NCBI RefSeq assembly: GCF_000332315.1
Contig: NZ_KB235937.1
Span: 389,025 to 437,038 of the forward strand
Direction: 5' to 3'
DNA: 48,014 bases
Source of the DNA: Prochlorothrix hollandica PCC 9006 = CALU 1027
GTDB lineage: Bacteria > Cyanobacteriota > Cyanobacteriia > Prochlorotrichales > Prochlorotrichaceae
Shown: one piece after another, positions 2,807 to 19,072 of the stretch
Layout of the letters: each line of letters opens with the position of its first letter
Position numbering within the stretch: the first letter of the stretch is position 1
Translations under genes and position numbers: made by a program
The notes under the pieces: generated by a model
Told to the model about the DNA's origin: nothing
The model's input: the letters and a program-made list of their open reading frames with translations, nothing else
The model's database searches: none

Positions 2807-3210
2807 AAAACCGGATGGACTTGTCAGGATTATTGGGGAGGAGAATTGATGAGTGCAAACAGAGTTCAAGACAAGCTTGAGATCTTAATTTTCTGATGTG
2901 ATGGTAGAGATTGATCGCAAGTGTTATCTCAAGAATCTTTATCGTTTTAGTTTAGCCTAGACAGAAAAGGGCTAGGGATCAAGGGGGGATCGGGTTAGGG
3001 ATCAAGGGGGAACCAGAATCGAGCTATGTCCTTGACCTGCGAAACCTCGAGGATCTTCAACAGGATAAACCGTGCAATAACGGCAACCCGTTCCCGAAAC
3101 TGAAGATCATAGGTTTAAGCTGCGTTGCAATGGAGGCAACAGCGCCATAGGTTCCCCTTAACCGGGCTATGAATCAGACCAAAATGGTTACATTAATTTA
3201 CATTTTTGGG

Positions 3211-5552: not shown

Positions 5553-6260
5553 CTATACTGTCAAACTGGCACCATTCTTTCTAAGCCACTCTTTACGATC
5601 GCGGTAGTCTGGCATCACCTTGTCCACTTCATTCCAAAAAGCATTGCTATGGTTACGATAGTGAAAGTGGCATAGCTCATGGACAATAATGTAATCGATG
5701 ATGGTGGGAGGGGCCATCATGCACTTCCAATGGAAGTTGAGCCGACCCGTGATGCCGCAACTGGCCCAGCGGTAACCCAAGTCTTTAATTTTGATGCTCG
5801 TGGGTTGAACGCCCGTTTTAGGGGAAAAATAGTTGACCCGATCGCACAAGTATTTTTGACCCTTATCCGTGAGGTAAGCTGCAAATACTTGTTGTGCGGC
5901 TGAGGTACCGCCCTGATCAATCACGGTGCGATGTAAGCAGAAACGGCCCCCTTTTAACGTTAAGGGACTATCTTGATCCAAGACGAGGGCTAAGCGATAG
6001 TTACGGCCTAAGTATAGAAAGGTTTCGCCGTTGACCCACTCCCGGACTACGGCGCTGGTGTTGAGGTTTTTCCATTGGGCTAAGTTGCGGTAAATCCAGA
6101 GGCGTTTGCTTTCCACCACCGCATCGACCTGCTCTGGGGTGTAATCGACCGGTGGACGCACCGTTACTCTGCCGTCCCGCTCGATCACAATGTCGGTGGT
6201 TTTGCGCAAACTGCCCGGGAGTAACTGGTATTCAATATCTCGGACGCAGCGAACAATCAT
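5553..6260 (-). CDS. YgjP/SprT-like zinc metalloprotease (M48/DUF45 type)
   Basis: A 235-residue protein with the metalloprotease motif HELCH at 194-198 and a third likely zinc ligand at His204 (HSNAFW), as in the YgjP/DUF45 family. An upstream LGYRWASCGITGRLNFHWK segment (161-179) is also typical of the family. Its ATG overlaps the hsdR stop by 4 bases (ATGA), so it is translationally coupled to the restriction subunit and is the last gene of the type I R-M unit. Such proteases recur beside type I systems, where their job is not established. Turnover or control of the restriction subunit is an inference from position only. The length is normal for the family and all ligands are present. Confidence 0.88.
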   Translation of the reverse strand: MIVRCVRDIEYQLLPGSLRKTTDIVIERDGRVTVRPPVDYTPEQVDAVVESKRLWIYRNLAQWKNLNTSAVVREWVNGETFLYLGRNYRLALVLDQDSPLTLKGGRFCLHRTVIDQGGTSAAQQVFAAYLTDKGQKYLCDRVNYFSPKTGVQPTSIKIKDLGYRWASCGITGRLNFHWKCMMAPPTIIDYIIVHELCHFHYRNHSNAFWNEVDKVMPDYRDRKEWLRKNGASLTV

Positions 6261-9200
6261 GGGTGATCACCTGTGCCCTTCAGCAGTTCATGGTGGCGGT
6301 TTTTGGCGAGCTTCATAATTTCGACGGCAATACGTTCACGATTAGCCTTTAACTCGGCAATGGCAGTCAGGGTGAGGGCAGTCTTGATGTGGCTGCGGGT
6401 TATCTTTTGCTTGTCGCTATTATTCCAGAAATCGATGCTGCCAATACTATCTTGCAAGGTTTCGACAATTGCCTCCATTAGCGCCTGCATGGTGGGTTTG
6501 GCTTCCGGGGGCACCGCTCCGTGGGCGAAAACCTGATGGGCGATGTGCTCATAGAAAATCGTGGCTTCTTTACCCATGCCCTCTTGCCCCTGCTGACGAC
6601 CCGCGATCGCCTCTGCTCGAATTTTTTCTAGCTCTTTGGCTAGCTGATCCCAGTGGTCTTGATACTCACCAATCAAACGCTCGACTTTTTTGGATAGGCT
6701 TTGATAAAAAGCAGGGTCTTCGTCATGGTGGACGGTACAGTGCTTGCGGATGGCGTGTTCCATTTCGCTGGCTTTGGCCTCATGATTGCCACCTGCGTGC
6801 TGCTTGAGTTGCTCCATAAAGTCCGGCGACAGCAGTTCAACGGGGGGCACCTTGGGGTTGATCCCCAGGCTGATCAAATGTTCGTTGATCAGATCCCGCA
6901 CCTTTTGCCCAGCATCCCCCAGGTCAAGGCTGGTGTCTTTGTAGCGCTCTTGGGTCACCCGCAGGATGTAGCCCAGGCGTTTGGCGGGCACTCGATAGGG
7001 CTGGGCCAGGGGGTTAGGCAGAATAATATCCAGGCTAGCCAGAAATTTTCTCAGATATTCGTCGAAATCAGCCCGGATTTTCTCGTCTTTGAGCAACTTG
7101 ACCGCCTCATGGACAACGGCAGCATCGGCTTCGATCGTGGCTAGACTCCCTGTGGCATATTCGCGTACTTTGGCGATCTTGTGGTCTGCAAATAGGTGTA
7201 GCAGGCGATGGTAACGCTCCTCTAGCACGGGCACCTCCGAAGTAATGCTCTTCAAGCCCACCGCGAGTTCCTGTTGTTCATGGGTGGCGGCGTAGAGGGT
7301 CAGGGCTTCGGTCAGGTTTTCAGTCAGGCCGATGTAATCGACAATGTAGCCCCGCTGTTTGCCCTGCCTGACGCGGTTGGTGCGGGCGATCGCCTGTAAG
7401 AGGGTATGCTCTTTAATTTTTTTATCGATGTACATCACCTGCTCGATCGGAGCATCAAAGCCGGTGAGCAGCATATCGCACACCACCAAAAAGGCAATGC
7501 CGCTGTGGGGCTGATCGGGATCGTCAAAGGCAAAGGGGCGGCAAAAGTTATCCACGGCGTTCCAGGCGCGGGCTTGCTGGCGGGCTGCGGTGACATAGGC
7601 GGGTTCGTTGGTGTCGCCGCCGGAGATCACCACCGCTGTCTTAAGGAAGCGCACTTTGCGGATGAGTTCGCTGTCAGCGACAGGTTGGGCCTTCAAGCGG
7701 GCCACGGTGTCCGCCAGAGCTTGATCGATGGCGGTTTGATAGCGCACGGCGGCGAGTTTGGAATGGCACACCACTTGGGCTTTAAACCCATTGGGAAAGA
7801 TGTGCTCTAAATAATGCTTCACCAGGTCTTGGGCGATCGCGCCAATGCGTTGCTCGGCTTCCAGTAGATCGCCCGTAGCCCCATACTTTTTCTTGATGGC
7901 TAGCAATTCTTCTGCGCTGCGATCGCGAAATAGGTCTTCAAAGCGGGTATCAAAGTTTTGTTTATCGTTCAGGATATCGTTGGAGGTGCGGCCTTCATAC
8001 AAAATTTGCAGGGTGGTACCGTCGGCCACGGCATCCATCAGCCGATAGGTGTCGATGTAGGTGCCAAAGCGCTGGTAGGTTTTCTTTTGGCCATGGCGAT
8101 CGCTAATTAACGGGGTGCCCGTAAAGGCGATGCGGGCCGCATTGGGGAAGGCTTCAAAGACGTTATCTCCCAGGTCTGAGCCTTGGGTGCGGTGGGCCTC
8201 GTCAATCATCAGCACAATACGATCGGAGCGATTGACCACGCCAAAGGTCTGGCTGCTGGGAATGACTCGGTAGGTGCCCAGGGCTTCCGCCACTTGCAGG
8301 GGCATGGCCGGATGCCGCTGCTGAAACTTATGCACCATAGCCATATTGATATCGGAGGTGTCGGTGGATAGGCGATCCCGGAGGGCTTGGGCGCTGGTGA
8401 TGGTGTGGACGCGGCCCCCGATGAGGGTGGCGGTTTTCGTCAGTTGATCTTCGAGATCGACGCGATCGTTAATCAAGACAATCTTGTAGTCGCTGAGATC
8501 GGGGGATGCCCGCAGCATCCGCGCCACAAAAACCATGGTCAGGCTCTTACCGGATCCCTGGGTGTGCCAGATGACACCGCTTTTTTCTGCGGCGGTTTGG
8601 CCCTGGCGTAGGCGATCGATGATTTTGTTAGCTGCCCGAAACTGTTGGTAGCGGCAGACTACCTTAATGCGGGGACCGCTGTCGGTGTCCATGAAAATGC
8701 TGGAGGTGCGAAGTATGCTCAGCAGGTTAGCTTTAGGGAGCATCCCATTGATGAGTTGCTGTTGTGGAGTTAGCCCTGGGGTGGCGCTGTCTGCCTCCCG
8801 ATCGGGGTTTGGATCCTGGGTTTTCCAGGGATAAAAATGTTCGTGACCGGAGGTGATGGTGCCATAGTCGGCTTCCAGACCCGTGGTGCGCACCAGAAAC
8901 AGATTGGTGTGAAACAGGCGTGGCTCCCCTTCCCGTAACTGATGGCGGGCGGTTTCCTCTCGCTGGTTCATATAGCGCTGGAGTTGCTGAAACGCTTCGG
9001 CCATGGGGTTGGCACAGGTGCTGCTGCCTTTTTTGCACTCCACTACAATCAGGGGGATGCCGTTCACAAACAGCACAATGTCGGGAATGATGAATTGCTT
9101 GACGCAACCGGGGGTATCAATACGGAACTGGTTGATGGCGTGAAACTGGTTGTTTTCTGGGTTGGCGAAGTCGATCAGCTTGACGACGGGATCTTTCTCG

Positions 9201-9529
9201 CCGGTGCGATCGTTAACATCCACCTGGGCTTTAAACAGCAGTTTCTGAATGGCTTCGTTGGCTTCCAGTAGGGTGCGGTTGGGCTGGCGCAGGATTTGGT
9301 CTTGCAGGTCTTGCAGTTGGTGGGGGGTGAGCCAGGGAATGCCCCCTGCTGTGGTGTTGAGGGCGGCGACAGCTTGGTTAAAAACCTGGGGCAGGAGCCA
9401 CTGGCGAAAGGTGGCCCGCAGGCTGGGGGCGGGGTCGCTGGGGGGATGTGACCCTTGGTCGATGATGTGCCAACCCAGGGCTTGGAGCTGTTGCAAGAAG
9501 GGCTGTTCGATCTCAGTATATTCACTCAT
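6257..9529 (-). CDS. hsdR: Type I restriction enzyme, R (endonuclease/translocase) subunit
   Basis: A 1090-residue motor/nuclease subunit of a type I restriction-modification complex (HsdR2M2S). Residues 130-170 carry the PD-(D/E)xK nuclease core, with Asp150 in FIIPDIVLF and Glu164-Cys-Lys166 in IVVECKKG. The superfamily-2 translocase follows: Walker A QGSGKS (324-329), DEAH box IDEAHRTQ (442-449), TGTP (470-473), and a distal QAIARTNRVRQG motif VI. A helical C-terminal region binds the methylase core in relatives. The length fits the family. It translocates DNA with ATP and cuts unmodified DNA when recruited by HsdM/HsdS. It is separated from hsdS by about 330 bases, so it may have its own promoter, and it overlaps the downstream protease gene by 4 bases. 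Confidence 0.95.
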   Translation of the reverse strand: MSEYTEIEQPFLQQLQALGWHIIDQGSHPPSDPAPSLRATFRQWLLPQVFNQAVAALNTTAGGIPWLTPHQLQDLQDQILRQPNRTLLEANEAIQKLLFKAQVDVNDRTGEKDPVVKLIDFANPENNQFHAINQFRIDTPGCVKQFIIPDIVLFVNGIPLIVVECKKGSSTCANPMAEAFQQLQRYMNQREETARHQLREGEPRLFHTNLFLVRTTGLEADYGTITSGHEHFYPWKTQDPNPDREADSATPGLTPQQQLINGMLPKANLLSILRTSSIFMDTDSGPRIKVVCRYQQFRAANKIIDRLRQGQTAAEKSGVIWHTQGSGKSLTMVFVARMLRASPDLSDYKIVLINDRVDLEDQLTKTATLIGGRVHTITSAQALRDRLSTDTSDINMAMVHKFQQRHPAMPLQVAEALGTYRVIPSSQTFGVVNRSDRIVLMIDEAHRTQGSDLGDNVFEAFPNAARIAFTGTPLISDRHGQKKTYQRFGTYIDTYRLMDAVADGTTLQILYEGRTSNDILNDKQNFDTRFEDLFRDRSAEELLAIKKKYGATGDLLEAEQRIGAIAQDLVKHYLEHIFPNGFKAQVVCHSKLAAVRYQTAIDQALADTVARLKAQPVADSELIRKVRFLKTAVVISGGDTNEPAYVTAARQQARAWNAVDNFCRPFAFDDPDQPHSGIAFLVVCDMLLTGFDAPIEQVMYIDKKIKEHTLLQAIARTNRVRQGKQRGYIVDYIGLTENLTEALTLYAATHEQQELAVGLKSITSEVPVLEERYHRLLHLFADHKIAKVREYATGSLATIEADAAVVHEAVKLLKDEKIRADFDEYLRKFLASLDIILPNPLAQPYRVPAKRLGYILRVTQERYKDTSLDLGDAGQKVRDLINEHLISLGINPKVPPVELLSPDFMEQLKQHAGGNHEAKASEMEHAIRKHCTVHHDEDPAFYQSLSKKVERLIGEYQDHWDQLAKELEKIRAEAIAGRQQGQEGMGKEATIFYEHIAHQVFAHGAVPPEAKPTMQALMEAIVETLQDSIGSIDFWNNSDKQKITRSHIKTALTLTAIAELKANRERIAVEIMKLAKNRHHELLKGTGDHP

Positions 9530-9859
9530 ATAAGTCTGTTACGGAAGAAAATGTAGGACTATCGACGGCTGGGGGTGCGGTTGGGGTTGCTGATTAATCC
9601 CCAAAGCCAAGAGGTTAAGGTTGATCGTCCGGGGCAATAGGTGACGGTTTTAGAGTCGCCGCTGGCGATCGAGTGTGGTGTGGTGATGCCCGGTTTTGTG
9701 CTGGAGATGGGCCGTATTTGGTCATAATTGCTTGGCTCTCAGTTCAAGTTACATCCCTATCCCTGATTTTGACGGTTTATGCAGAACTTAACCTCGAACA
9801 ATCCCAAGGATGACCCTAATACCCACACCGCACTCAGGATTATAGCGGCTGGCTGCGAC
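9530..9859. other. hsdS-hsdR intergenic gap
   Basis: A 330-base non-coding stretch inside an otherwise tight operon. On the plus strand, 9640-9727 is open for about 28 codons (ending EMGRIWS-stop) with GC-rich, coding-like texture. This could be a gene remnant, but no family was recognised. A promoter for hsdR is plausible here, though no clear -10/-35 pair was identified. Confidence 0.4.
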
Positions 9860-11161
9860 CTACGCCCTGTTTTCGTCTGGTTCGACGGTGACAGGGACTT
9901 TACCAGTGAGGAGATCGTGCATTAAGCCAGACTTTTGTTTATTCAGTTTACTTCGAGTCTCTTTCTCTTGCTCAATTTTCTTATTTATAGATAGTAGACA
10001 ATTCGTAATTCTTACTTGTTCATCTTTACATCGAGGGAAAGAGATGTCCATGCTCTTCAAGAGGCTTGAACTCAAGTTTTTTTGGCTACCATCATTACTC
10101 ATATCTCTTAAGTCATGATATTTATATTCAAAAAGAAAATACATGAATTGGCTTTCAATCAAACCATTAAATTCAAAGCCTACGCAAGCCTGGTTTGAAG
10201 CGCAATCAATTCCAAGTATAGCCACACGTCCTCTCGTATTTCCTTCACCATATATAGCCATGACAACCGTGCCTTTACAAAAAAGCTTTGCCGATGATGA
10301 ATTTAGACCTTCCTTCGTTATGTGTTCTTCTGACTTTTCTATTTTCCCATATTTGATTTCGCCAGTTTTAATCCATGGAATGCTACCTCCCCAGAAATTA
10401 CTTTTACTTCTATTTGGTGTACCTCCTGACGTGATATTGCATAGTTTTCCTAATAACTTAACTTCCCACTCCCTTGGAATCCAGCCGATCGCACTCTCCT
10501 GATACAACTCTGGGGCTTGCTCACGGGGAGGGCGCAGTTTGCCGTCGGACCCAATGCCACGGGTAAACAGGTCGTGCATCAGCCCCGCCTTGATTTGCTG
10601 GTATTTTTCGATCAGGGCTTCGGTGTGGGCGATGGTGCGATCGATGGTCTGTAGAACAGTAGCAATAGTTTGCTGTTGCTGGACTGGAGGGAGTCGTAAA
10701 GGAATACTAGCTAGATACTCAGCAGAAATATGTATTACAGAGCTACCCTGACCTAATCTAGATTTATGTTTAGCAAAATGATTACTATTGACTGCATAAC
10801 CCGCAAAATAAGAATCAAGGTTTGATCTTGGACGAAAGATAATAGTGTCTCCTCCTGCATAAACCTTATCTTGACCACAATAGGCTGCCGCTTTTCCAAT
10901 TTCCTCAGATGTTTCTCCAGAACCAGCAAAGACAATATCACCAGATTTCAGAGGTGTATATGAAGATGCTTTATCAGGCTCAATAGCAGAACAAAAACTT
11001 TTGACTATGCAACCATGATGCGTGTAAAGATCACCATAACGGATACAAGGGAGTCCGTTATGACTTTCATCAGAGCGAGTGCCACCCTGTCCTCGGAAAA
11101 ATATACCTAAAGAGCCTAAAGGGATTTCCTGCCAACTTTCTGGCAAATTCACATCACTCAT
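9860..11161 (-). CDS. hsdS: Type I restriction enzyme, S (specificity) subunit
   Basis: A 433-residue DNA-recognition subunit with the usual two-fold architecture. The first target-recognition domain (about 1-150, starting LPESWQEIPLGSL) is followed by a conserved helical spacer (QQQTIATVLQTIDRTIAHTE, then KAGLMHDLFTRGIG). The second domain (about 225-375, starting IPREWEVKLLGKL) is followed by a second spacer that repeats GLMHDLLTGKVPV. Both recognition domains are encoded by clearly AT-rich DNA, while the spacer between them is GC-rich like the rest of the region, which fits domain swapping by recombination. The ATG at 11161 overlaps the stop of a 28-codon hsdM remnant (TATGAGTGA), preserving an ancestral hsdM/hsdS overlap. 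Confidence 0.95.
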   Translation of the reverse strand: MSDVNLPESWQEIPLGSLGIFFRGQGGTRSDESHNGLPCIRYGDLYTHHGCIVKSFCSAIEPDKASSYTPLKSGDIVFAGSGETSEEIGKAAAYCGQDKVYAGGDTIIFRPRSNLDSYFAGYAVNSNHFAKHKSRLGQGSSVIHISAEYLASIPLRLPPVQQQQTIATVLQTIDRTIAHTEALIEKYQQIKAGLMHDLFTRGIGSDGKLRPPREQAPELYQESAIGWIPREWEVKLLGKLCNITSGGTPNRSKSNFWGGSIPWIKTGEIKYGKIEKSEEHITKEGLNSSSAKLFCKGTVVMAIYGEGNTRGRVAILGIDCASNQACVGFEFNGLIESQFMYFLFEYKYHDLRDMSNDGSQKNLSSSLLKSMDISFPRCKDEQVRITNCLLSINKKIEQEKETRSKLNKQKSGLMHDLLTGKVPVTVEPDENRA

Positions 11162-11240
11162 ACCCCAAACCCACTAAAAACGCCTGTAACTCCCGCGTCG
11201 TCACCGCATACTTTTCCCATAGGTTTTTAGACTCAAACAT
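11154..11240 (-). pseudogene. Duplicate of the hsdM 3' end (28 codons), overlaps hsdS start
   Basis: The minus strand reads [18 protein letters not shown] then QAFLVGLGYE-stop, matching the last residues of the hsdM product ([13 protein letters not shown] ... [12 protein letters not shown]). The hsdM copy has 12 extra residues in the middle. At the DNA level, 11157-11197 and 11851-11891 are nearly identical. It overlaps the DUF5615 stop by 8 bases and its own stop overlaps the hsdS ATG. It may act as a short coupling peptide or simply be the scar of the toxin-antitoxin insertion. Confidence 0.8.
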
Positions 11241-11553
11241 GAATGATAATTGCTTGACCTTTTAGAGCCATATTCACTTGTACCATGACCAACGGAGCCA
11301 AAGGCTTCAGATCTGCCAATCGATTGGAGTAGGCTTGCAATACAATGACCGCGATCTCAAATTGGGGCAGATTTTGTTCAAATGATAAATTGCGATCGAC
11401 AGTGATAAAAACATCAAATTCTTGGGCCGCAAGTGCAAGAAGCTGACCATTCTTAATACCTGCCCACCCCATCTGGGGAACCGTGTTCACCTCATAGCCA
11501 ACCAACTCCCTTGCAAACCGGCGATCGATACATTCATCTAGCAGCAGCCTCAT
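11233..11553 (-). CDS. DUF5615 PIN-like protein (probable toxin of a TA pair)
   Basis: A 106-residue protein of the DUF5615/Mut7-C-like PIN fold. It starts MRLLLDECIDRRF with the first acidic residues, has VNTVPQMGWAGIKNGQLLALAAQ, then FDVFITVDRNLSFEQNL with the second acidic cluster expected of a PIN-type nuclease active site. Its ATG overlaps the DUF433 stop (4 bases), the standard antitoxin-first arrangement. In relatives the pair is annotated as a VapBC-like toxin-antitoxin. Ribonuclease activity is inferred from the fold and is not demonstrated for this member. The last codons overlap the duplicated hsdM end. Confidence 0.85.
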   Translation of the reverse strand: MRLLLDECIDRRFARELVGYEVNTVPQMGWAGIKNGQLLALAAQEFDVFITVDRNLSFEQNLPQFEIAVIVLQAYSNRLADLKPLAPLVMVQVNMALKGQAIIIHV

Positions 11554-11780
11554 CGTAACGCAGCCCCATCCATCATCTGTTGTCCCAGTCCCTCAATCAC
11601 AACAACAACCTGATCCTTGGTCACCGTCGGGAAACCAGCCAGAAAATCATTAATCGAGTCCCCCGCCTTTAGATAATCCAACAGCGTTGCTACCGGTACC
11701 CTTGTTCCCAGAAACACCGGAGTTCCCCCCATCACCTCCGGCGATCGACTAATCACAGATAAAACATTGATCTCAGCCAT
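11550..11780 (-). CDS. DUF433 protein (probable antitoxin)
   Basis: A 76-residue DUF433 protein with the typical pattern ISRSPEVMGGTPVFLGTRVPVATLLDYLKAG and a C-terminal helical part. DUF433 proteins have a winged/helix-turn-helix-like fold and are usually the antitoxin and autoregulator partner of DUF5615 proteins, as here. The gene lies 67 bases after the hsdM stop, on the same strand. Together with the next gene it splits hsdM from hsdS. Confidence 0.85.
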   Translation of the reverse strand: MAEINVLSVISRSPEVMGGTPVFLGTRVPVATLLDYLKAGDSINDFLAGFPTVTKDQVVVVIEGLGQQMMDGAALR

Positions 11781-11847
11781 AGTTTAAGCCCTCAGCAACC
11801 AGCAATCTATCCTCATTTTAAGAACCCTTGCCCACAGGGAACAGAGG

Positions 11848-14574
11848 CTACTCATACCCCAACTCCACCAAAAACGCCTGTAACTCCCGCGCCGCCTCAT
11901 CCCGCGCCGCCTCAATCTCCCGCGCCGTCACCGCATACTTCTCCCATAGGTTTTCGATCGCCCGCACACAAGCCCGCTGATCCGCCCGTAAATAGGTCTC
12001 ATAAATCTCCATCAGGGTTTTCCGTAGTCGCTCAAGAATCACCAAGCGGGCCTGATCCGGCGAAATTTTTTCACGGGCCTGCTGCACCAAATCATCCCGA
12101 TTTCGCTCAATTCCCTTGATATGCGCCCTCAGCGTCTGCACCTCCTTCGTCAGAGCCTGATGACGCTCCAAACTAGCCGTAATCATTGTCGCCTGTCCAT
12201 AGGCTAGTTGCCCCTGGGCGATCGCCTCCTGCAACGGGATCCCATACTCACTCAGCCTACCCACCCGCTCAGCCAGATCCAAAACTCGCTGACCATTAGC
12301 AAACTGCGGATCCTTTTGACTAAAGCCCTCCGTACAATAAAACCCCTTCCGTTCCCCCTGGGCCAACAGACCCGCCGCCTTGACCTCCGTAAAAATATGG
12401 TCCACCAGCGTCTTAACCCGCTTCAGCAGCGCCTTCCACTGCGCCGTTTGGGTCTTCAGCTCCTCCCTCATACTCCTCACTGCCTCACTGGGCAACACCC
12501 CCGTATCATCAGTATCCTCAAACTCCTCCTCATCCGCCGCCGCAAACAGGGCTTGCAACTCCGCCAGCCGGGTCTGGGCCTGCTCCAACTCCTCCAACAC
12601 CTCCGGAAACTGGTTTTGCAAAATCTCCTCATCGGGGATCAACTCCGGACCCCAACCACTGGCGGCAATAGACTGAAAATCCGCCTTCAGCACATCCATA
12701 TAATTGGCAAACGCCCCCCGCACCTGAAACGGCGTGAGTAACTGCTGATCCCCTAGGGCCACTCCAATACTGTCCAACAGATTGCGGCGCATCCCATAAA
12801 CATTACGGGTTCGGGCCTCAGGATGAGCAGCATCCGGGGCCAGAGCCTCCACAATGGGTAAATTGGCCAACCACCACGCCTCCAGGATTTCCATAAACTG
12901 GCGATGGCGAGTCGTCACACTCTGGTGATGGGCTACAAACTCCGCAATATCACGCTTGCAGGTCAGCACCGGGGCAAAATCCAGATAGATATCATCCCGG
13001 GGCACAAACGCATCCTGTCGCAACTGGCCATAATTTTGCCAAAACTGGGCCAGACTAGCCACCTCCCCCTGGGGCACCCCCCCCTGGAGATGGGCACGCA
13101 CATCATGGGGTTCCGAGGGGGGCGCATTGTCCACATAGCGCCGAATATTGCAGTTATAGTCCTCCGCAACAATCTCCGATCGGGGCACCCGCCGCCCATA
13201 GGCCGGAATATCCACCTGATCGCGGTAAACATAGACAATCTTATCGATATCTTCGGGGCGCAGGAAATTCTGGGCCTTGCCTTCTCGGTATTCGCGATCG
13301 GCATTGATAAACAGCACCGCGTCACGGGTGGCCGCCCCCGCCTTAGTCATCACCAACAGACATGCAGGAATGCCCGTGCCATAAAACAGATTGCTGGGCA
13401 AACCAATCACCGCCTCCAGATAGCCGCTATCGATAAAGTACTTGCGGGCTTCCCGCTCTTCCCCCCCCCGAAACAGCACCCCATGGGGCATCACCGTCAC
13501 CATTCGCCCATCGTGCGCCAACACGGCCAGCATATGCTGCACAAACATCAGATCCGCCTTCTTGCCCTTTTCCGGCATCATCACCGGAAACCGTCCGGGC
13601 AAGTCCAGCTCTCTTTTGATGTAGTTCTGGCTAAAGGGGGGATTGGCGACGACCCGATCGAAGCGCTTCAGTTGGTTATTTTCCTCCAAATGCAGAGGTT
13701 TTCGCAGGGTATCCTCCTGACGAATATCAGCATGGGCAATGCCATGGAGCAGCATATTCATCTTGCAGATAGACCAAGTGGTGCCCATTTTTTCCTGACC
13801 GAACAACGCCAATTCACTGGCCCTGCCACCCTTCTCCCGCAAATAGTCCCGCATCTGAATCAACATCCCACCCGAACCCACCGTGGGGTCATAGACCAAC
13901 ATCCCCTCCTTCGGATCGCAGATTTCCACACAGACCCGCACCACCTCCGCCGGGGTATAAAATTCTCCTGCCTTTTTGCCCGCCGAGTCCGCAAAGTACT
14001 TGATCAGATACTCGTAGGTAGCTCCCAACAAATCAGGGAACTCAAAATCGCTGTCTTTGAGGGGAATTTTCTCAAAGTTGAGCAAAAAGTCCGACAAAGT
14101 ATCATCATCCAGGGTGCGCTGCCCGATCTTGCGGTTAAAGTTGATTGTAGACAGTACATCTTGCAGCAGATTAAGGTTGGCCTGTTCGATCGCCTCCAGA
14201 GCTTTGTTCAACGCTGTGCCAACGTTGTTTTTAACGTGCTTCAAGGCCGGATGCTGGATGATTTTAGTCTGGCCAGCCTCGATAACCTCTTCCTGCCAGC
14301 TTTGACTCCAGCGGGCGCGAGGGGGCACATAGAAGTATTGACCGGAGTAATTATCGGCATCTTCTAGCTCCACCTCAATGTCTTCTGCCGCCATGCCGTG
14401 GGCCGCTAACTCAGTACGCAACTCAGCCTGCCGCTGCTCAAACAGGTCACTGGCCCGCTTCAGAAACAACATACCAAAGATGTATTCCTTGTACTCGCTG
14501 GCATCCATGCTGCCCCGCAGATCATCACAAGCGGTGAGCAGCAGATTGTATAGGCGAGAAAGGGTTAACTTCAT
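11848..14574 (-). CDS. hsdM: Type I restriction-modification, M (N6-adenine methylase) subunit
   Basis: The preferred start is the ATG at 14574 ([20 protein letters not shown]), giving 908 residues; an upstream in-frame ATG at 14610 adds 12 unlikely residues. Residues 20-110 form the N-terminal HsdM helical domain. GEFYTP (203-208), the SAM-binding motif I DPTVGSGG (229-236) and catalytic NPPF (311-314) are all intact, so it should methylate adenine. The protein is much longer than a usual HsdM of about 500 residues. The extra C-terminal part of about 400 residues is highly charged and helical (coiled coil), ending in [20 protein letters not shown]. It is first in the restriction unit. Confidence 0.95.
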
Positions 14575-14968
14575 GAGGGATCTACACCGGATTAGCAGAG
14601 ACTTCAGCAACCTATGGCACTATAGCAGCTAACGCCTGTCTGAACCCCAGAATCCAGGTCTATACAGCGGTTTTCACAACAGTGGCACACCATCAGGCAC
14701 TGCCCCACCTCCGACAGGGACACTACCGATCCTCAACCATCCTGAAAAGTGCTGTCAGAATTAACGAGAACTATGGCGATAAAAATTCTTACTTGTCTAG
14801 AACTACTCTAGAACTACCCAAATATAAAGCAGACTACAGCAGTCCTAAATGGGTTGTGCGAATTTTTTAAGATTCGAGCCTGTCTGTGTAAGGCTTGCAG
14901 CGATCGAAAACTTATAACGGATCTGGGACTAGTGTAGTGCAATCTGGAGGCGGGTAGGCTATTGGGGG
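14575..14968. other. Intergenic region upstream of hsdM
   Basis: About 390 bases between the CheA stop and the hsdM start. It is AT-richer than its surroundings and includes a T-rich run near 14863-14869 and a dispersed-repeat-like motif at 14836-14860. It presumably holds the promoter of the restriction unit. No gene was recognised. Confidence 0.45.
14836..14860. repeat. Short dispersed motif shared with 24044-24068
   Basis: ACAGCAGTCCTAAATGGGTT followed by GTG here, and ACAGCAGTCCGATATGGGTT followed by GTG at 24044. Two such copies in one window in intergenic or leader DNA suggest a dispersed repeat end. Confidence 0.5.
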
Positions 14969-15007
14969 TTCAAACGGTGCCTTCAAACGGTGCCTTCAAA
15001 CGGTGCC
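14969..15007. repeat. 13-bp tandem repeat, 3 units, spanning the CheA stop codon
   Basis: Three perfect copies of TTCAAACGGTGCC, followed by a broken fourth. The CheA stop (TGA at 14996-14998 on the minus strand) lies in the third unit, so the duplicated units fall just downstream of the gene and repeat the sequence encoding its last residues. Confidence 0.9.
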
Positions 15008-18000
15008 TTCAAAAAGTTTTTCGATCGATAATACCAACTCTTGAATCCCCAGGGGCTTCGTGAAATAGGCGGTAGCTCCCAGGGATTCGGCTTGGGCGAT
15101 GTGGCGATCGCTCTGGCGAGACGTGAGCATGGCCACCGGCAACTGGTGGAAGCGTTGATCCTCCCGCACCCGTTGCAACAGTTGGAACCCATCCAAGCGG
15201 GGCATCTCCACATCAGAAATCAGCAACTGACAATCCAGCCCTTCCTGGAGTCGCTCCCAGGCTTCCTGACCATCGCGGCACTGCACCACCTGATGACCAA
15301 CCTGGGTTAGGGCATGGCTCAGCCAGCGACGGGCCGCCACGGAATCATCCACCACCAACACCGTTTTGACCGCTGCCAGGGGGGGAGGAGCGGCGGGGGA
15401 GTCGGCGGGGGGCATGGCCGAAGGTTGACCCCCTGGGGATGCCAGGGCTTCAGGGGATAACACCGGCACCACTTGGCCTTGGGGCAAGAGGGTACAACCT
15501 GCCACATAGGGGGGAATGGGTAACCAGGATTCCAGGGCTTTCAGCACCATTTCCCGTTCTTCCAGCAGGGTGTCCACTTGCAGGGCAACGGGGTGGGGGG
15601 CTTGGAGGATGGCGGCGATCGCCCCCGAAAACTTGGCCACTTGGGTCGTCCAGCCCTGGGGCGCTAGATCTGGGGTCAGGGCTTGCAGTTGCCAGGGGTG
15701 CTGGGGGGCGGGCAGCAGTTGGCTCAGTTGAAGTAAGGGCAAGGGGCGATCGTGCCACATCAGGGTATCTGCCCCCAGGGTGCTGCTGTCCAGTTCGACA
15801 ATTTCCAACACCTGACTGGAGGGAATGGCCACCACAGCCGGGGGACCCCAGGGGCGGTTTTGTTGGCACAGCAACAGGGGCAGAATATTGAGGGTGGAGG
15901 GTACCCGCAGGCTGAAGCAGGTGCCCTGGCCCCGGCGGGTTTGGATGTCCACAGAACCGCGCAGATGTTCAATCTGGGTTTTGACCACATCCATGCCCAC
16001 CCCACGACCCGACAGTTCCCCCACCTGGGCAGCGGTGGAGAATCCAGGACTAAAGAGACACTGGAGAATTTGAGAGAGACTGTTACTGCCCGCCGGTAAT
16101 AAACCGAGGCGTTGGGCTTTGGCTTGAACCTGGTCTACATCAATGCCCTGGCCATCATCGGTGACGCTGATGATGATACTTGTCCCCGCCTGTTGGGCGG
16201 CTAGGGTAATGGTTCCTTGGGCTGGTTTGCCCTGGTTTTGGCGATCGGTGGGTAATTCCTGGCCATGGTCAAAGGCATTACGGATGAGATGGAGCAGGGG
16301 ATCATAGAGGGAGTCGAGGATCGCCCGATCGACTTCGGTATCCCCCCCGTTGATCTGGAATTGCACCTGTTTATGGTAGCGGTGGTTGAGATCCCAGAGG
16401 GGACGGCGAAAGCGATCGGCCAGGGTCTCAAAGCGCACCATGCGGGCCTCCGTTAATCCCTGGCGCACCTTGTCCAGTTCTTGACGGACGGAACTTTGGG
16501 ATTCCTGGGCAGACTGGTTAATTAAGCTAATATCATCGGCATATTCATCAATGCGGGACAGGAACTCCTGGAGATCCTGCAAGAGGCTATGGAGATCGGT
16601 AAACTGATCCAATTCCAGGGTATCAAAACCCCCTTGATTCGATGCAGCGTAGCCCTGGCGAGTCGGGAGCAGCATTCCGTCATAGCAATTTTGAATCCGC
16701 TCCCTCAAGCGGTAAAACTGTCTCGTTTGACGTTTCAGTTCTTGGCTAGTGCGCCGCAGGCGTTGGTGATCTAGGTTCACTTGCTCCGAGTGGATCAACA
16801 GATCCCCCACTCCATCGGCTAGGGCGTTGAGGCGGCTGATGGACAGGCGCATGGTGGCTTCCGGCAGGCTAGCAGGGACAGGGGTAGGGGGCTTAGGATC
16901 AGAGGTTTCCACCGTTGCGGTGGTTTTCAGGGCTGTTGGGCTGGAAATCTCTGGTTTAAGGGTGATTAGATCGGTAAATCCTGAATCTGCATTAGTTACC
17001 TCAGCAGTTTCAGGATTGGTGATATCACTCCCCACGAAGTCTGCCAGGGTTGCGTTGGTATTAGTGACATTGGTATTAGTGACATTGGTATTAGTGACAT
17101 TGGTATTAGTGACATTGGTATTGGTGACATGGGTATTAGTGACATCAGGACCGATTAAGTCTGCAAGGCTGACTTCAGCACCGGTTACGTTAGTCCCCGT
17201 TCTGTCGAAAGCGGTTGCCTCAGGATCGGCTATATCACTACCGATCAGGTCTGCAAGGCTGAAGTCACTAGCGGGTACATCACTAGCGGGTATATCACTA
17301 CCGATCAGATCTGCAAAGCTGAAGTCACGAGCGGGTATATCACTAGCGGGTAGGTCTATCAGGCTGAAGTTACTAGCGGGTATATCACTAGCGGGTATAT
17401 CACTACCGATCAGATCTGCAAGGCCGAAGTCACTAGCGGGTAGGTCACTAGCAGGTAAGTCACTACCGATCAGATCTGCAAGGCCGAAGTCACTAACGGG
17501 TAAGTCACTAACGGGTAAGTCACTAGCAGTTAAGTCACTACCGATCAGGTCTGCAAGGCTGAAGTCAGTAGCGGGTAGGTCACTAGCAGTTAAGTCACTA
17601 GCAGTTAAGTCACTAGCAGTTAAGTCACTACCGATCAGGTCTGCAAGGCTGAAGTCAGTAGCGGGTAGGTCACTAGCGGTTAAGTCTGTAATACCGAAGT
17701 CACTCACGGGTAGGTCACTAGCGGGTAGGTCACTAGCGGTTAAGTCTGTAATACCGAATTCAGTAGCGGTTAAGTCACGACTAGTTTCGTCAGGGCGGGG
17801 GGGCGGGGGGGGCGCGATCGCCCTGGGGAGAGGAGTCTCAGGTTGAGAGGGGGCGGGTTCTGGGTTTATGGATCCTAGGCTCGTGGGGACAGGATCCAGT
17901 TCTAGGCTGGAAAAGTCCGAGGGGAACAGATGAACCGCCCCCTGGCCTGGGTCTATCCCCTCAGCAGAATCGAGATCAGGATCGCCCTGGGGGGGGTGGG

Positions 18001-19072
18001 TCAACGGAGATCCAAAGCCAGCCTCAGGCATAGCAGCGGCAGCGATCGAAGACTGATCCAAGGGCAAGGGGTGGGGGGACAGACTAAAGCCTAACGGCGT
18101 GGCTGCATCGGTGATTTCAGGGGTAATTGAGCTAGGAACGCCAGGAATACCCAACCCCAGGGGGGGAGGGGGGAGGGGAGCCATCAACAGATCTTCCAGA
18201 CTATTGGCCACCCCTTCAGAAATGCCACCCCTAACCTCCGTAGGTTCATCAGGCAATCCATGAGACCCATTCGATCCACCCCGGTCTGATTTTTCCAGCG
18301 TGGTCTGTCGTTGTTGTTCCAGAGAGCGCACAGCGTCGATCGCCGCTGAGCGGTGAGCCTCAGCACTCAGTCCAGTGGATTTTTCCACAGCCCGCAGGAG
18401 GGGAACAGCTTGGGTAAGCCAGTCCAGTTTCAGGATTTCCCCCAGGGTTTGGCAGTCCTGGGCCAGGAGAGAAAGAACTTTGCCCACAGGGGCGGGCGGT
18501 TCCCGTTGCAGTTGCTCCAGGCTCCGCTGAACACAGGTTTTGAAATCCGTATCGAGAACAACTTGGATCAAATGGGCCAAGGAGGGATCAGCGCCATTGA
18601 AACCATCGGCGGCAACCATATCCGCCGCTTCAGCCCCCTGGGACAAGAAACTTTGGGCCAACAGCAGATCAATGTTTTCGAGGATCTCAGGGGGGGGACA
18701 GTCTTGGTCGGTGTGGGCCACCTGGGCCAATTGCTGCCGAATTTGATCCACCCCCAGCAGCAACAGTTCCACGGTCAGCCGGGGATCGGGCAAGTGGCGA
18801 TCGCCCAGGGCCAGCAGCACATCCTCCAACCGGTGGGCCAACTGGCTCAGGTTATGGAGTTGGGACAGGGCCGCGCTGCCCTTGAGGGTGTGGATCGATC
18901 GCAGCAGCGATCGCCAATGGGCCGTATTGGTGTCCGGATAGTCCCCAGTCCCCTCCAGATGAAGCAACTGTTGTTCCAGGATCTCCAAATGCTCTGGGGC
19001 ATCTTCGTAGATAAAACACTGGCGAACCTCCTGTTCGATCGCGCTCAGGGCCGCTGCATTCAACATAGACAT
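14996..19072 (-). CDS. CheA-type hybrid histidine kinase (PilL/HmpE-like) with receiver and pentapeptide-periodic linker
   Basis: 1358 residues. The N-terminal HPt domain has SIHTLKGSAAL with phospho-acceptor His61. A variable linker follows, in which residues 431-690 are an uninterrupted run of 52 five-residue units (ASDLP, GSDLT, ATDFS, LADLI, NTNVT). Next come the dimerisation/long helical region (about 740-880) and the HATPase with HLIRNAFDHG (928-937), DDGQGID (972-978) and SGRGVGMDVV (1021-1030). A CheW-like domain and a C-terminal receiver (VVDDS, ISDVEMP with the phospho-Asp, MLTS, FTKP) follow. It is the last gene of the PatA/CheY/CheW/MCP/CheA operon, as in cyanobacterial pilus-motility clusters (tax3/pil in Synechocystis, hmp in Nostoc). 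It phosphorylates the two response regulators in response to the MCP. Confidence 0.93.
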   Translation of the reverse strand: MSMLNAAALSAIEQEVRQCFIYEDAPEHLEILEQQLLHLEGTGDYPDTNTAHWRSLLRSIHTLKGSAALSQLHNLSQLAHRLEDVLLALGDRHLPDPRLTVELLLLGVDQIRQQLAQVAHTDQDCPPPEILENIDLLLAQSFLSQGAEAADMVAADGFNGADPSLAHLIQVVLDTDFKTCVQRSLEQLQREPPAPVGKVLSLLAQDCQTLGEILKLDWLTQAVPLLRAVEKSTGLSAEAHRSAAIDAVRSLEQQRQTTLEKSDRGGSNGSHGLPDEPTEVRGGISEGVANSLEDLLMAPLPPPPLGLGIPGVPSSITPEITDAATPLGFSLSPHPLPLDQSSIAAAAMPEAGFGSPLTHPPQGDPDLDSAEGIDPGQGAVHLFPSDFSSLELDPVPTSLGSINPEPAPSQPETPLPRAIAPPPPPRPDETSRDLTATEFGITDLTASDLPASDLPVSDFGITDLTASDLPATDFSLADLIGSDLTASDLTASDLTASDLPATDFSLADLIGSDLTASDLPVSDLPVSDFGLADLIGSDLPASDLPASDFGLADLIGSDIPASDIPASNFSLIDLPASDIPARDFSFADLIGSDIPASDVPASDFSLADLIGSDIADPEATAFDRTGTNVTGAEVSLADLIGPDVTNTHVTNTNVTNTNVTNTNVTNTNVTNTNATLADFVGSDITNPETAEVTNADSGFTDLITLKPEISSPTALKTTATVETSDPKPPTPVPASLPEATMRLSISRLNALADGVGDLLIHSEQVNLDHQRLRRTSQELKRQTRQFYRLRERIQNCYDGMLLPTRQGYAASNQGGFDTLELDQFTDLHSLLQDLQEFLSRIDEYADDISLINQSAQESQSSVRQELDKVRQGLTEARMVRFETLADRFRRPLWDLNHRYHKQVQFQINGGDTEVDRAILDSLYDPLLHLIRNAFDHGQELPTDRQNQGKPAQGTITLAAQQAGTSIIISVTDDGQGIDVDQVQAKAQRLGLLPAGSNSLSQILQCLFSPGFSTAAQVGELSGRGVGMDVVKTQIEHLRGSVDIQTRRGQGTCFSLRVPSTLNILPLLLCQQNRPWGPPAVVAIPSSQVLEIVELDSSTLGADTLMWHDRPLPLLQLSQLLPAPQHPWQLQALTPDLAPQGWTTQVAKFSGAIAAILQAPHPVALQVDTLLEEREMVLKALESWLPIPPYVAGCTLLPQGQVVPVLSPEALASPGGQPSAMPPADSPAAPPPLAAVKTVLVVDDSVAARRWLSHALTQVGHQVVQCRDGQEAWERLQEGLDCQLLISDVEMPRLDGFQLLQRVREDQRFHQLPVAMLTSRQSDRHIAQAESLGATAYFTKPLGIQELVLSIEKLFEGTV
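17003..17782 (-). repeat. 15-bp coding tandem repeat, 52 units (pentapeptide-periodic) inside CheA gene
   Basis: Units of the type GTCACTAGCGGTTAA (plus-strand sense) repeat in exact 15-base register. They encode x-(S/T/A)-(D/N)-(L/F/I/V)-x, i.e. the (STAV)(DN)(LF)xx rule of pentapeptide-repeat beta-helices. Higher-order blocks (LADLI-GSDLx-ASDLx-...-xDFx) also repeat. The block near 17058-17135 uses NTNVT instead. Confidence 0.9.

Follow-up and report, generated by a model that had tools for sequence, protein, structure and literature searches.

Defence genes, those of toxin-antitoxin systems among them, are clustered with restriction systems, and in EcoprrI the toxin gene prrC, which encodes an anticodon nuclease, is nested in the hsd operon, where it is placed after hsdS. 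Here we describe a type I restriction-modification operon of Prochlorothrix hollandica PCC 9006 = CALU 1027 in which a DUF433-DUF5615 gene pair lies between hsdM and hsdS, and a short copy of the hsdM 3' end (the hsdM tail) stands directly before hsdS. The operon lies in a stretch of 48,014 nucleotides (nt) (contig NZ_KB235937.1, positions 389,025 to 437,038 of the forward strand), here called the window, whose first letter is position 1. It has been reported in PMC3510504 that the overlapping hsdM and hsdS genes of EcoKI are translationally coupled, and PMC4963859 lists toxin-antitoxin and type I genes of pSYSG of Synechocystis sp. PCC 6803.

The nesting of defence genes in type I operons is a known arrangement. 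We noticed no description of duplicated hsdM ends before hsdS in the titles and abstracts listed by our searches of open-licence full texts, and found no stated rule by which genes inserted into a tightly overlapping operon could be tolerated. The reading that we consider probable is that an overlapping junction was split with a copy of the hsdM tail kept before hsdS, that such an insertion survives mainly when the shared end is doubled, and that the copy relays translation to hsdS. In sequence comparisons the window is one case of a recurrent pattern, in which inserts with varied cargo carry a short hsdM-tail copy before hsdS.

The hsdM-tail copy and the 28-codon frame

On the minus strand of the window the order is hsdM, a 67-nt spacer, the DUF433 gene, the DUF5615 gene, a frame of 28 codons, hsdS, a 330-nt gap, hsdR and a YgjP-like gene. 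The intact hsdM 3' end (11850-11960, minus strand), which serves as the reference copy of the repeat, recurs as a 72-nt copy at 11156-11227 (minus strand) that holds the hsdS start region; 67 of the 72 bases are identical and the two differ by one 33-nt in-frame deletion. A first-pass annotation of this DNA had pointed to 41-base repeats at 11157-11197 and 11851-11891 with three differences, which is what we find (3/41). It had also stated that the next 30 bases match, and this stands for 11198-11227 against 11925-11954 (2 differences) when the 33-nt gap is allowed for, since otherwise 20 of the 30 bases differ. The hsdS-proximal copy ends in a TGA (11154-11156) and has an 8-nt overlap with the hsdS start (ATG at 11159-11161), as had been proposed for the "right" copy; it is on the right, or downstream, in operon order alone and is the left copy by window coordinates.

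The 33-nt gap corresponds to 11 hsdM codons between short GCGCGGGAG repeats, and its loss by slippage in the copy is therefore likely. The opposite explanation, an expansion of hsdM, was rejected since the hsdM ends of relatives are full length. The hsdM tail is probably helical and has many short repeats, so the resemblance might be ascribed to chance, or to low-complexity similarity of coiled-coil codons. However, the match to the cognate tail has a P-value of ~4e-10 against shuffled tails, and none of 62 non-cognate tails and none of 5 other insert windows scored as high; we give chance similarity practically no credence.

The remnant was also said to have an ATG of its own, 28 codons long, overlapping the toxin stop. 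This is borne out by the frame at 11154-11240 (minus strand), which shares 8 nt with its neighbour on either side, through its ATG with the stop of the putative toxin gene and through its TGA with the hsdS start, so that the stop/start overlap geometry of coupled genes is present at both of its ends.

Intact and split hsdM-hsdS junctions

Relatives of the long HsdM of the window (family A) were taken from the best 80 of 389 confirmed places coding for such proteins (one genome per species, several phyla), together with relatives from another listing. The census covers 84 hsdM ends, with L008 and L038 being the same contig counted twice (L numbers denote loci). In 73 of the 84, hsdS starts where hsdM ends or close by, the commonest start lying 8 nt upstream of the last hsdM base, and the ancestral hsdS start region of the window, as judged from these relatives, is contained in the hsdM 3' end. 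The other 11 comprise five inserts with a copy, one insert without, four damaged hsdS genes and one contig end. The first-pass claim that an overlapping junction was split by the DUF433-DUF5615 pair, with the end that holds the hsdS start being kept, is upheld by the 73 intact or near-intact junctions and by the pair itself, which was found in no other hsdM locus among the first 116 fetched (window included).

The five inserts with a tail copy directly before hsdS, all found through their copies, are those of the window, L010, L067, L072 and L095. Their cargo differs. A RelB-like gene and one annotated as antitoxin TumA lie in L010 (plasmid pSYN7502.01, annotated as L250); L067 has a gene for 339 residues together with a Fic gene; in L095 there are repeats and a GIY-YIG gene, and in L072 just ~340 nt of repeat-like DNA. 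The insert without a copy (L012, also L247) stands with an interrupted hsdS frame and an hsdM frame of only 619 residues. The hsdS start is normal in L047, L055, L064 and L092, with hsdS ending early or being interrupted, and L114 reaches the contig end. In L064 and L047, transposase-like frames break hsdS shortly after the normal hsdM-hsdS overlap.

Two wider surveys, in which loci were not selected for tail copies, covered 80 cyanobacterial hsdM downstream regions, fetched among the matches listed, and 80 gammaproteobacterial ones, hand-picked from a 369-genome sample at one per genome with longer open frames preferred. The family A tail profile matched in only 18 of the 369 gammaproteobacterial genomes, and PF12161 was used there instead. 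Among the gammaproteobacterial regions hsdS abuts or overlaps hsdM in 46, is split from it by at least 60 nt in 25 and was not found in 9. In 68 split junctions (38 cyanobacterial, 25 gammaproteobacterial and 5 of family A) we then scored the 180 nt surrounding the start of hsdS against the cognate tail; left out were L248, an apparent copy of L173, and L212, whose hsdS lies past the fetched stretch (it was later found in L333). A cognate tail copy was found at the hsdS boundary in 12 of the 68 (P-value <1e-3; 0.07 expected), and in none of these 12 did a non-cognate tail match equally well, in a control that omitted tails similar to the cognate one. L309 was dropped as a tail copy, its match being the end of a whole second hsdM. 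Without it and the five family A cases, 6 of 62 remain (L230, L233, L240, L243; L266, L297), with ~0.06 expected. L300, L239 and others with a boundary P-value of 0.01-0.05 were left uncounted, and matches in L171 and L246 were not accepted as tail copies.

Some loci hold more than one copy. L240 has two, with a DUF1016 gene as the second unit, and the cyanobacterial locus L333 has six between hsdM and hsdS (at +2501, +3273, +4981, +5157, +5614 and +6085, with hsdS from +6152), interspersed with PIN, nucleotidyltransferase and HepT-like genes. At two places we saw a small unknown protein that ends, at the C-terminus, in an hsdM-tail copy: directly before hsdS in L337 (1297-1650, reverse strand), and after hsdM within the L333 array (+2963 to +3329).

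A tail profile matched in 67 of 388 cyanobacterial genomes, and 20 stretches were chosen from the matches by hand (L334-L353). Eight (L334-L341) were chosen for two tail matches on one contig and hence form no sample; in these a second tail, mostly in a short frame, lies shortly before hsdS. They allow, in another hsdM family, the comparison of junctions with and without an insert that the first-pass annotation had suggested as a check. In L338 and L223 the hsdM end (tail ...ENLRRLGL, then ATGAGTCC) overlaps the start of a small-gene cassette, whose 148-residue gene product in L338 looks PIN-like by eye. In L339, two small genes (HicA-HicB-like, also by eye) separate hsdM from this cassette, and directly before the cassette stands a 13-codon relic of the L338/L223-type hsdM end. 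The alignment of L338 with L339 extends to both sides, with 83% over 323 nt within hsdM and 71% over the 1070 nt that begin at the tail end. The relic is an old hsdM end that an insertion left behind.

Proposed translation across the copy, and its possible origin

Because in the uninterrupted form hsdS starts 8 nt inside hsdM, with its predicted ribosome-binding site in the last hsdM codons, an insertion at the overlap would have to damage HsdM or separate hsdS from the region where it starts; the exceptions would be a doubled shared end or an insert with a start signal of its own. Consistent with this placement, predicted anti-Shine-Dalgarno pairing upstream of hsdS averages -5.87 kcal/mol at 67 intact junctions, against -2.71 at same-phase sites in hsdM. 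At three loci the copy has retained this predicted signal and the resident hsdM end lacks it: L067 (-6.1 vs -0.9), L230 (-11.2 vs -3.3) and L297 (-8.3 vs +0.2). In addition, an in-frame ATG that overlaps the stop of the preceding gene by no more than 15 nt is present in 8 of 16 copies, with ~0.08 expected per case. In the window, ribosomes that leave the toxin gene would start again at the ATG of the 28-codon frame, translate the tail copy and begin hsdS where its start overlaps the stop of this frame. The first-pass proposal that coupling from toxin to hsdS was kept agrees with the overlaps at both ends and with the recurrence of such frames at other loci, the use of the frame by ribosomes being what we infer from this geometry. 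That the insertion is one that respects coupling is well supported by the sequence comparisons, and insertions that leave the shared end doubled or bring a start signal would be those that survive in working systems. A benefit from linking an addiction module to the restriction system, which the first-pass annotation also suggested, would be conjecture.

Several observations weigh against this reading. The copies of the window, where both ends carry the signal, and of L233 have weaker predicted signals than the resident ends (-4.0 against -5.9, and -3.3 against -8.0, respectively), and the other 8 of the 16 copies have no ATG overlapping the cargo stop. In pSYSG, toxin stop and hsdS start share 4 nt (ATGA) and there is no recognisable hsdM-tail copy. 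Finally, 56 of the 68 split junctions have no copy at a P-value <1e-3; copies are therefore not obligatory, and translation of hsdS is also maintained in other ways, of which pSYSG is an example.

The 28-codon peptide itself is probably a by-product. It might instead be functional, as a separate HsdM tail helix that binds HsdS: PMC3510504 argues that the HsdM C-terminus lies near the HsdS N-terminus and that hsdS may have captured HsdM-tail DNA, and the relay frames of L230 and L341 are open and homologous, with the third codon position the most variable (6, 8 and 12 differences at the three positions). However, the codon changes between these two are 12 nonsynonymous and 9 synonymous, the window copy has lost 11 residues and has A to T and E to G changes, and copies at other loci range from ~10 to 36 residues. 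We regard a functional peptide as very unlikely.

As to where the copy came from, the nearest of the 84 ends to the window copy is that of its own hsdM (67/72 bases, the next being 62/72; 63/70 against 59/70 in a second comparison). The G+C content of the central conserved region of hsdS (56.3%) is like that of hsdM (55.0%). Together, these two observations favour local duplication for the window copy. A different origin, in which a donor hsdS with its attached donor hsdM end replaced the resident hsdS and carried the toxin-antitoxin pair along, might be suggested by the G+C content of the whole hsdS (41.7%), 13 points below that of hsdM. The low values lie in the exchangeable recognition domains, as is general in the family; the hsdS-hsdM difference averages -8.6 in the family and is -13.3 in the window, with 6% of 68 as low or lower. 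A donor would also account for the L067 copy, which is nearer to other hsdM ends (38/43) than to its own (30/43), and for the L250 copy, for which the own hsdM ranks third, but the L067 difference may reflect the keeping of a ribosome-binding site. With the window copy being closest to its own hsdM, we think a donor hsdS improbable here.

Also improbable is an origin of the remnant from a second, tandem hsdM, all but the end of which was deleted. Upstream of hsdS, L309 does hold two complete hsdM genes in tandem, and L346 keeps a longer hsdM-like frame (~110 residues) before an MNT-HepT pair. However, random deletion of a gene of 500-900 codons should give remnants of broadly varying length, and the delimited copies in split hsd loci are all no longer than ~40 codons (with profiles of 35-50 residues, and upstream frames judged by eye). 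Moreover, the six separate copies of L333 would require six deleted genes, and the L339 relic matches the position of the L338/L223 hsdM end. The claim that the remnant was duplicated at insertion may hold, local duplication being favoured by the closeness of the own hsdM end and by an hsdS backbone that looks native by G+C, but the L067 and L250 copies and the tandem genes of L309 speak for caution.

The L339 relic is nearer to the L338/L223 hsdM ends than to its own, as if a new hsdM end had come in with the insert and taken the place of the old one, and a tail may thus arrive with an insert. Twelve further stretches with a tail match (L342-L353), hand-picked for short-frame matches, have no hsdM or hsdS near, with the exception of L346, where others lie ~3.7 kb off. 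Tails stand there before MNT and HepT genes (L351, L346), an MNT gene (L353), a DUF1016 gene with an 8-nt overlap (L349), a PIN gene and its neighbour of 75 residues (L348), Uma2 genes (L352, L347), and HepT and Fic genes (L345); in L342, L343, L344 and L350 no toxin or nuclease gene was confirmed after the tail. L342 comes from the P. hollandica genome itself (contig C1 near 1173939, minus strand) and has, at 5988-6062 on its reverse strand, a lone tail-like frame of 35 residues from another hsdM family, with no hsd gene within ~6 kb. These tails may be relics of decayed hsd operons whose toxin genes were kept, or they may be mobile cassettes led by a tail. The tail-MNT units of L351 and L353 are 92% alike over 412 nt, which inheritance within one genus would also explain. 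In both genomes we also observed repeats of ~73 nt near these units, possibly a small mobile repeat.

A wider reading, which we offer tentatively and hold to be doubtful, is that the end of hsdM works as a cassette junction that can be used repeatedly. Units of a tail leader and a toxin or defence gene would move into and out of hsd operons, with the tail as a possible site of homologous recombination, and would stack into arrays and live elsewhere, and the window would be a one-cassette example. A circle of tail and cargo would, by one crossover, give the order hsdM-cargo-tail-hsdS. The tail copies let one ask whether such genes move as tail-led cassettes, and as sequence tags they could help to find defence genes inserted into hsd operons. 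They also suggest a simple testable rule: an overlapping pair, when split, best keeps its overlap twice.

The operon and its likeness to known systems

The window hsdM (11848-14574, minus strand) has 908 codons from an ATG at 14574 and ends in a TAG at 11848-11850; its open frame reaches a TTG at 14610, and the alignment of relatives begins at about residue 13. It matches Pfam N6_Mtase and HsdM_N and the PADLOC Type I methyltransferase model, and its TIGR00497 score (222.5 bits) falls below the cut-off of 242.75 because this HsdM is the long form. The gene hsdS (9860-11161, minus strand; PF01420) encodes 433 residues with two specificity domains, and hsdR (6257-9529, minus strand; PF04313, PF18766 and TIGR00348) 1090 residues. 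With hsdM, hsdS and hsdR together, as matched by Pfam, NCBIfam and PADLOC, this is a type I restriction-modification operon of predicted activity. A YgjP-like metallopeptidase gene (5553-6260, minus strand; PF01863) overlaps hsdR by 4 nt, and in pOSC7112.01 a SprT-family metalloprotease gene is likewise found 3' of hsdR. Between hsdS and hsdR, on the plus strand (9554-9727), we observed the degenerate end of a Uma2-family gene with one internal stop (E 9e-4, below the Pfam cut-off). Beyond hsdM, at 14996-19072 on the minus strand, lies a gene for a CheA-like histidine kinase, in which a stretch of pentapeptide repeats separates the Hpt from the ATPase domain and a response-regulator domain is terminal.

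Between hsdM and the inserted genes, a simple scan of the 67-nt spacer (11781-11847, minus strand) revealed no promoter-like site, and a promoter and terminator scan and Rfam gave nothing useful for the hsdM-hsdS interval. The DUF433 gene (11550-11780, minus strand; PF04255, E 8e-17) encodes a putative antitoxin of 76 residues and overlaps by 4 nt the DUF5615 gene (11233-11553, minus strand; PF18480, E 6e-8), which encodes a putative PIN-like toxin of 106 residues. Both domains, antitoxin gene first and genes overlapping, give the architecture of a type II toxin-antitoxin pair, although NCBIfam and PADLOC matched neither protein. Such pairs are common in cyanobacteria: DUF5615 matches occur in 53 of 194 genomes, and DUF433 adjoins in most of the relatives listed. 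A toxin truncated at the junction was rejected, as DUF5615 homologues stop at the same place. Elsewhere in its own genome, the cassette showed just weak DNA similarity, to two diverged copies of DUF5615 in contig C3; these lie in L118 (~1391-1702 and 2819-3049), the second one being truncated.

Among described systems, EcoKI (type IA) is alike in that hsdS begins inside the hsdM end in another frame; its overlap is 1 nt and it has no insert, whereas in the window the overlap (8 nt in the family) is present twice with two genes between. In pSYSG the DUF433-DUF5615 pair is likewise found directly upstream of hsdS in a type I operon, but with another type of hsdM (a frame of 595 residues). EcoprrI and the window both nest a toxin gene in a type I operon and differ in its position and in the type of toxin, and we know of no tail duplication in EcoprrI. 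Integron gene-cassette arrays consist of serial genes separated by related short repeats, and the six related repeats between serial genes in L333 resemble them. In contrast to integrons, repeats of the window type are hsdM coding ends and not attC sites, and no integrase turned up, although no systematic search for one was made; what likens the two is the serial arrangement of genes and repeats.

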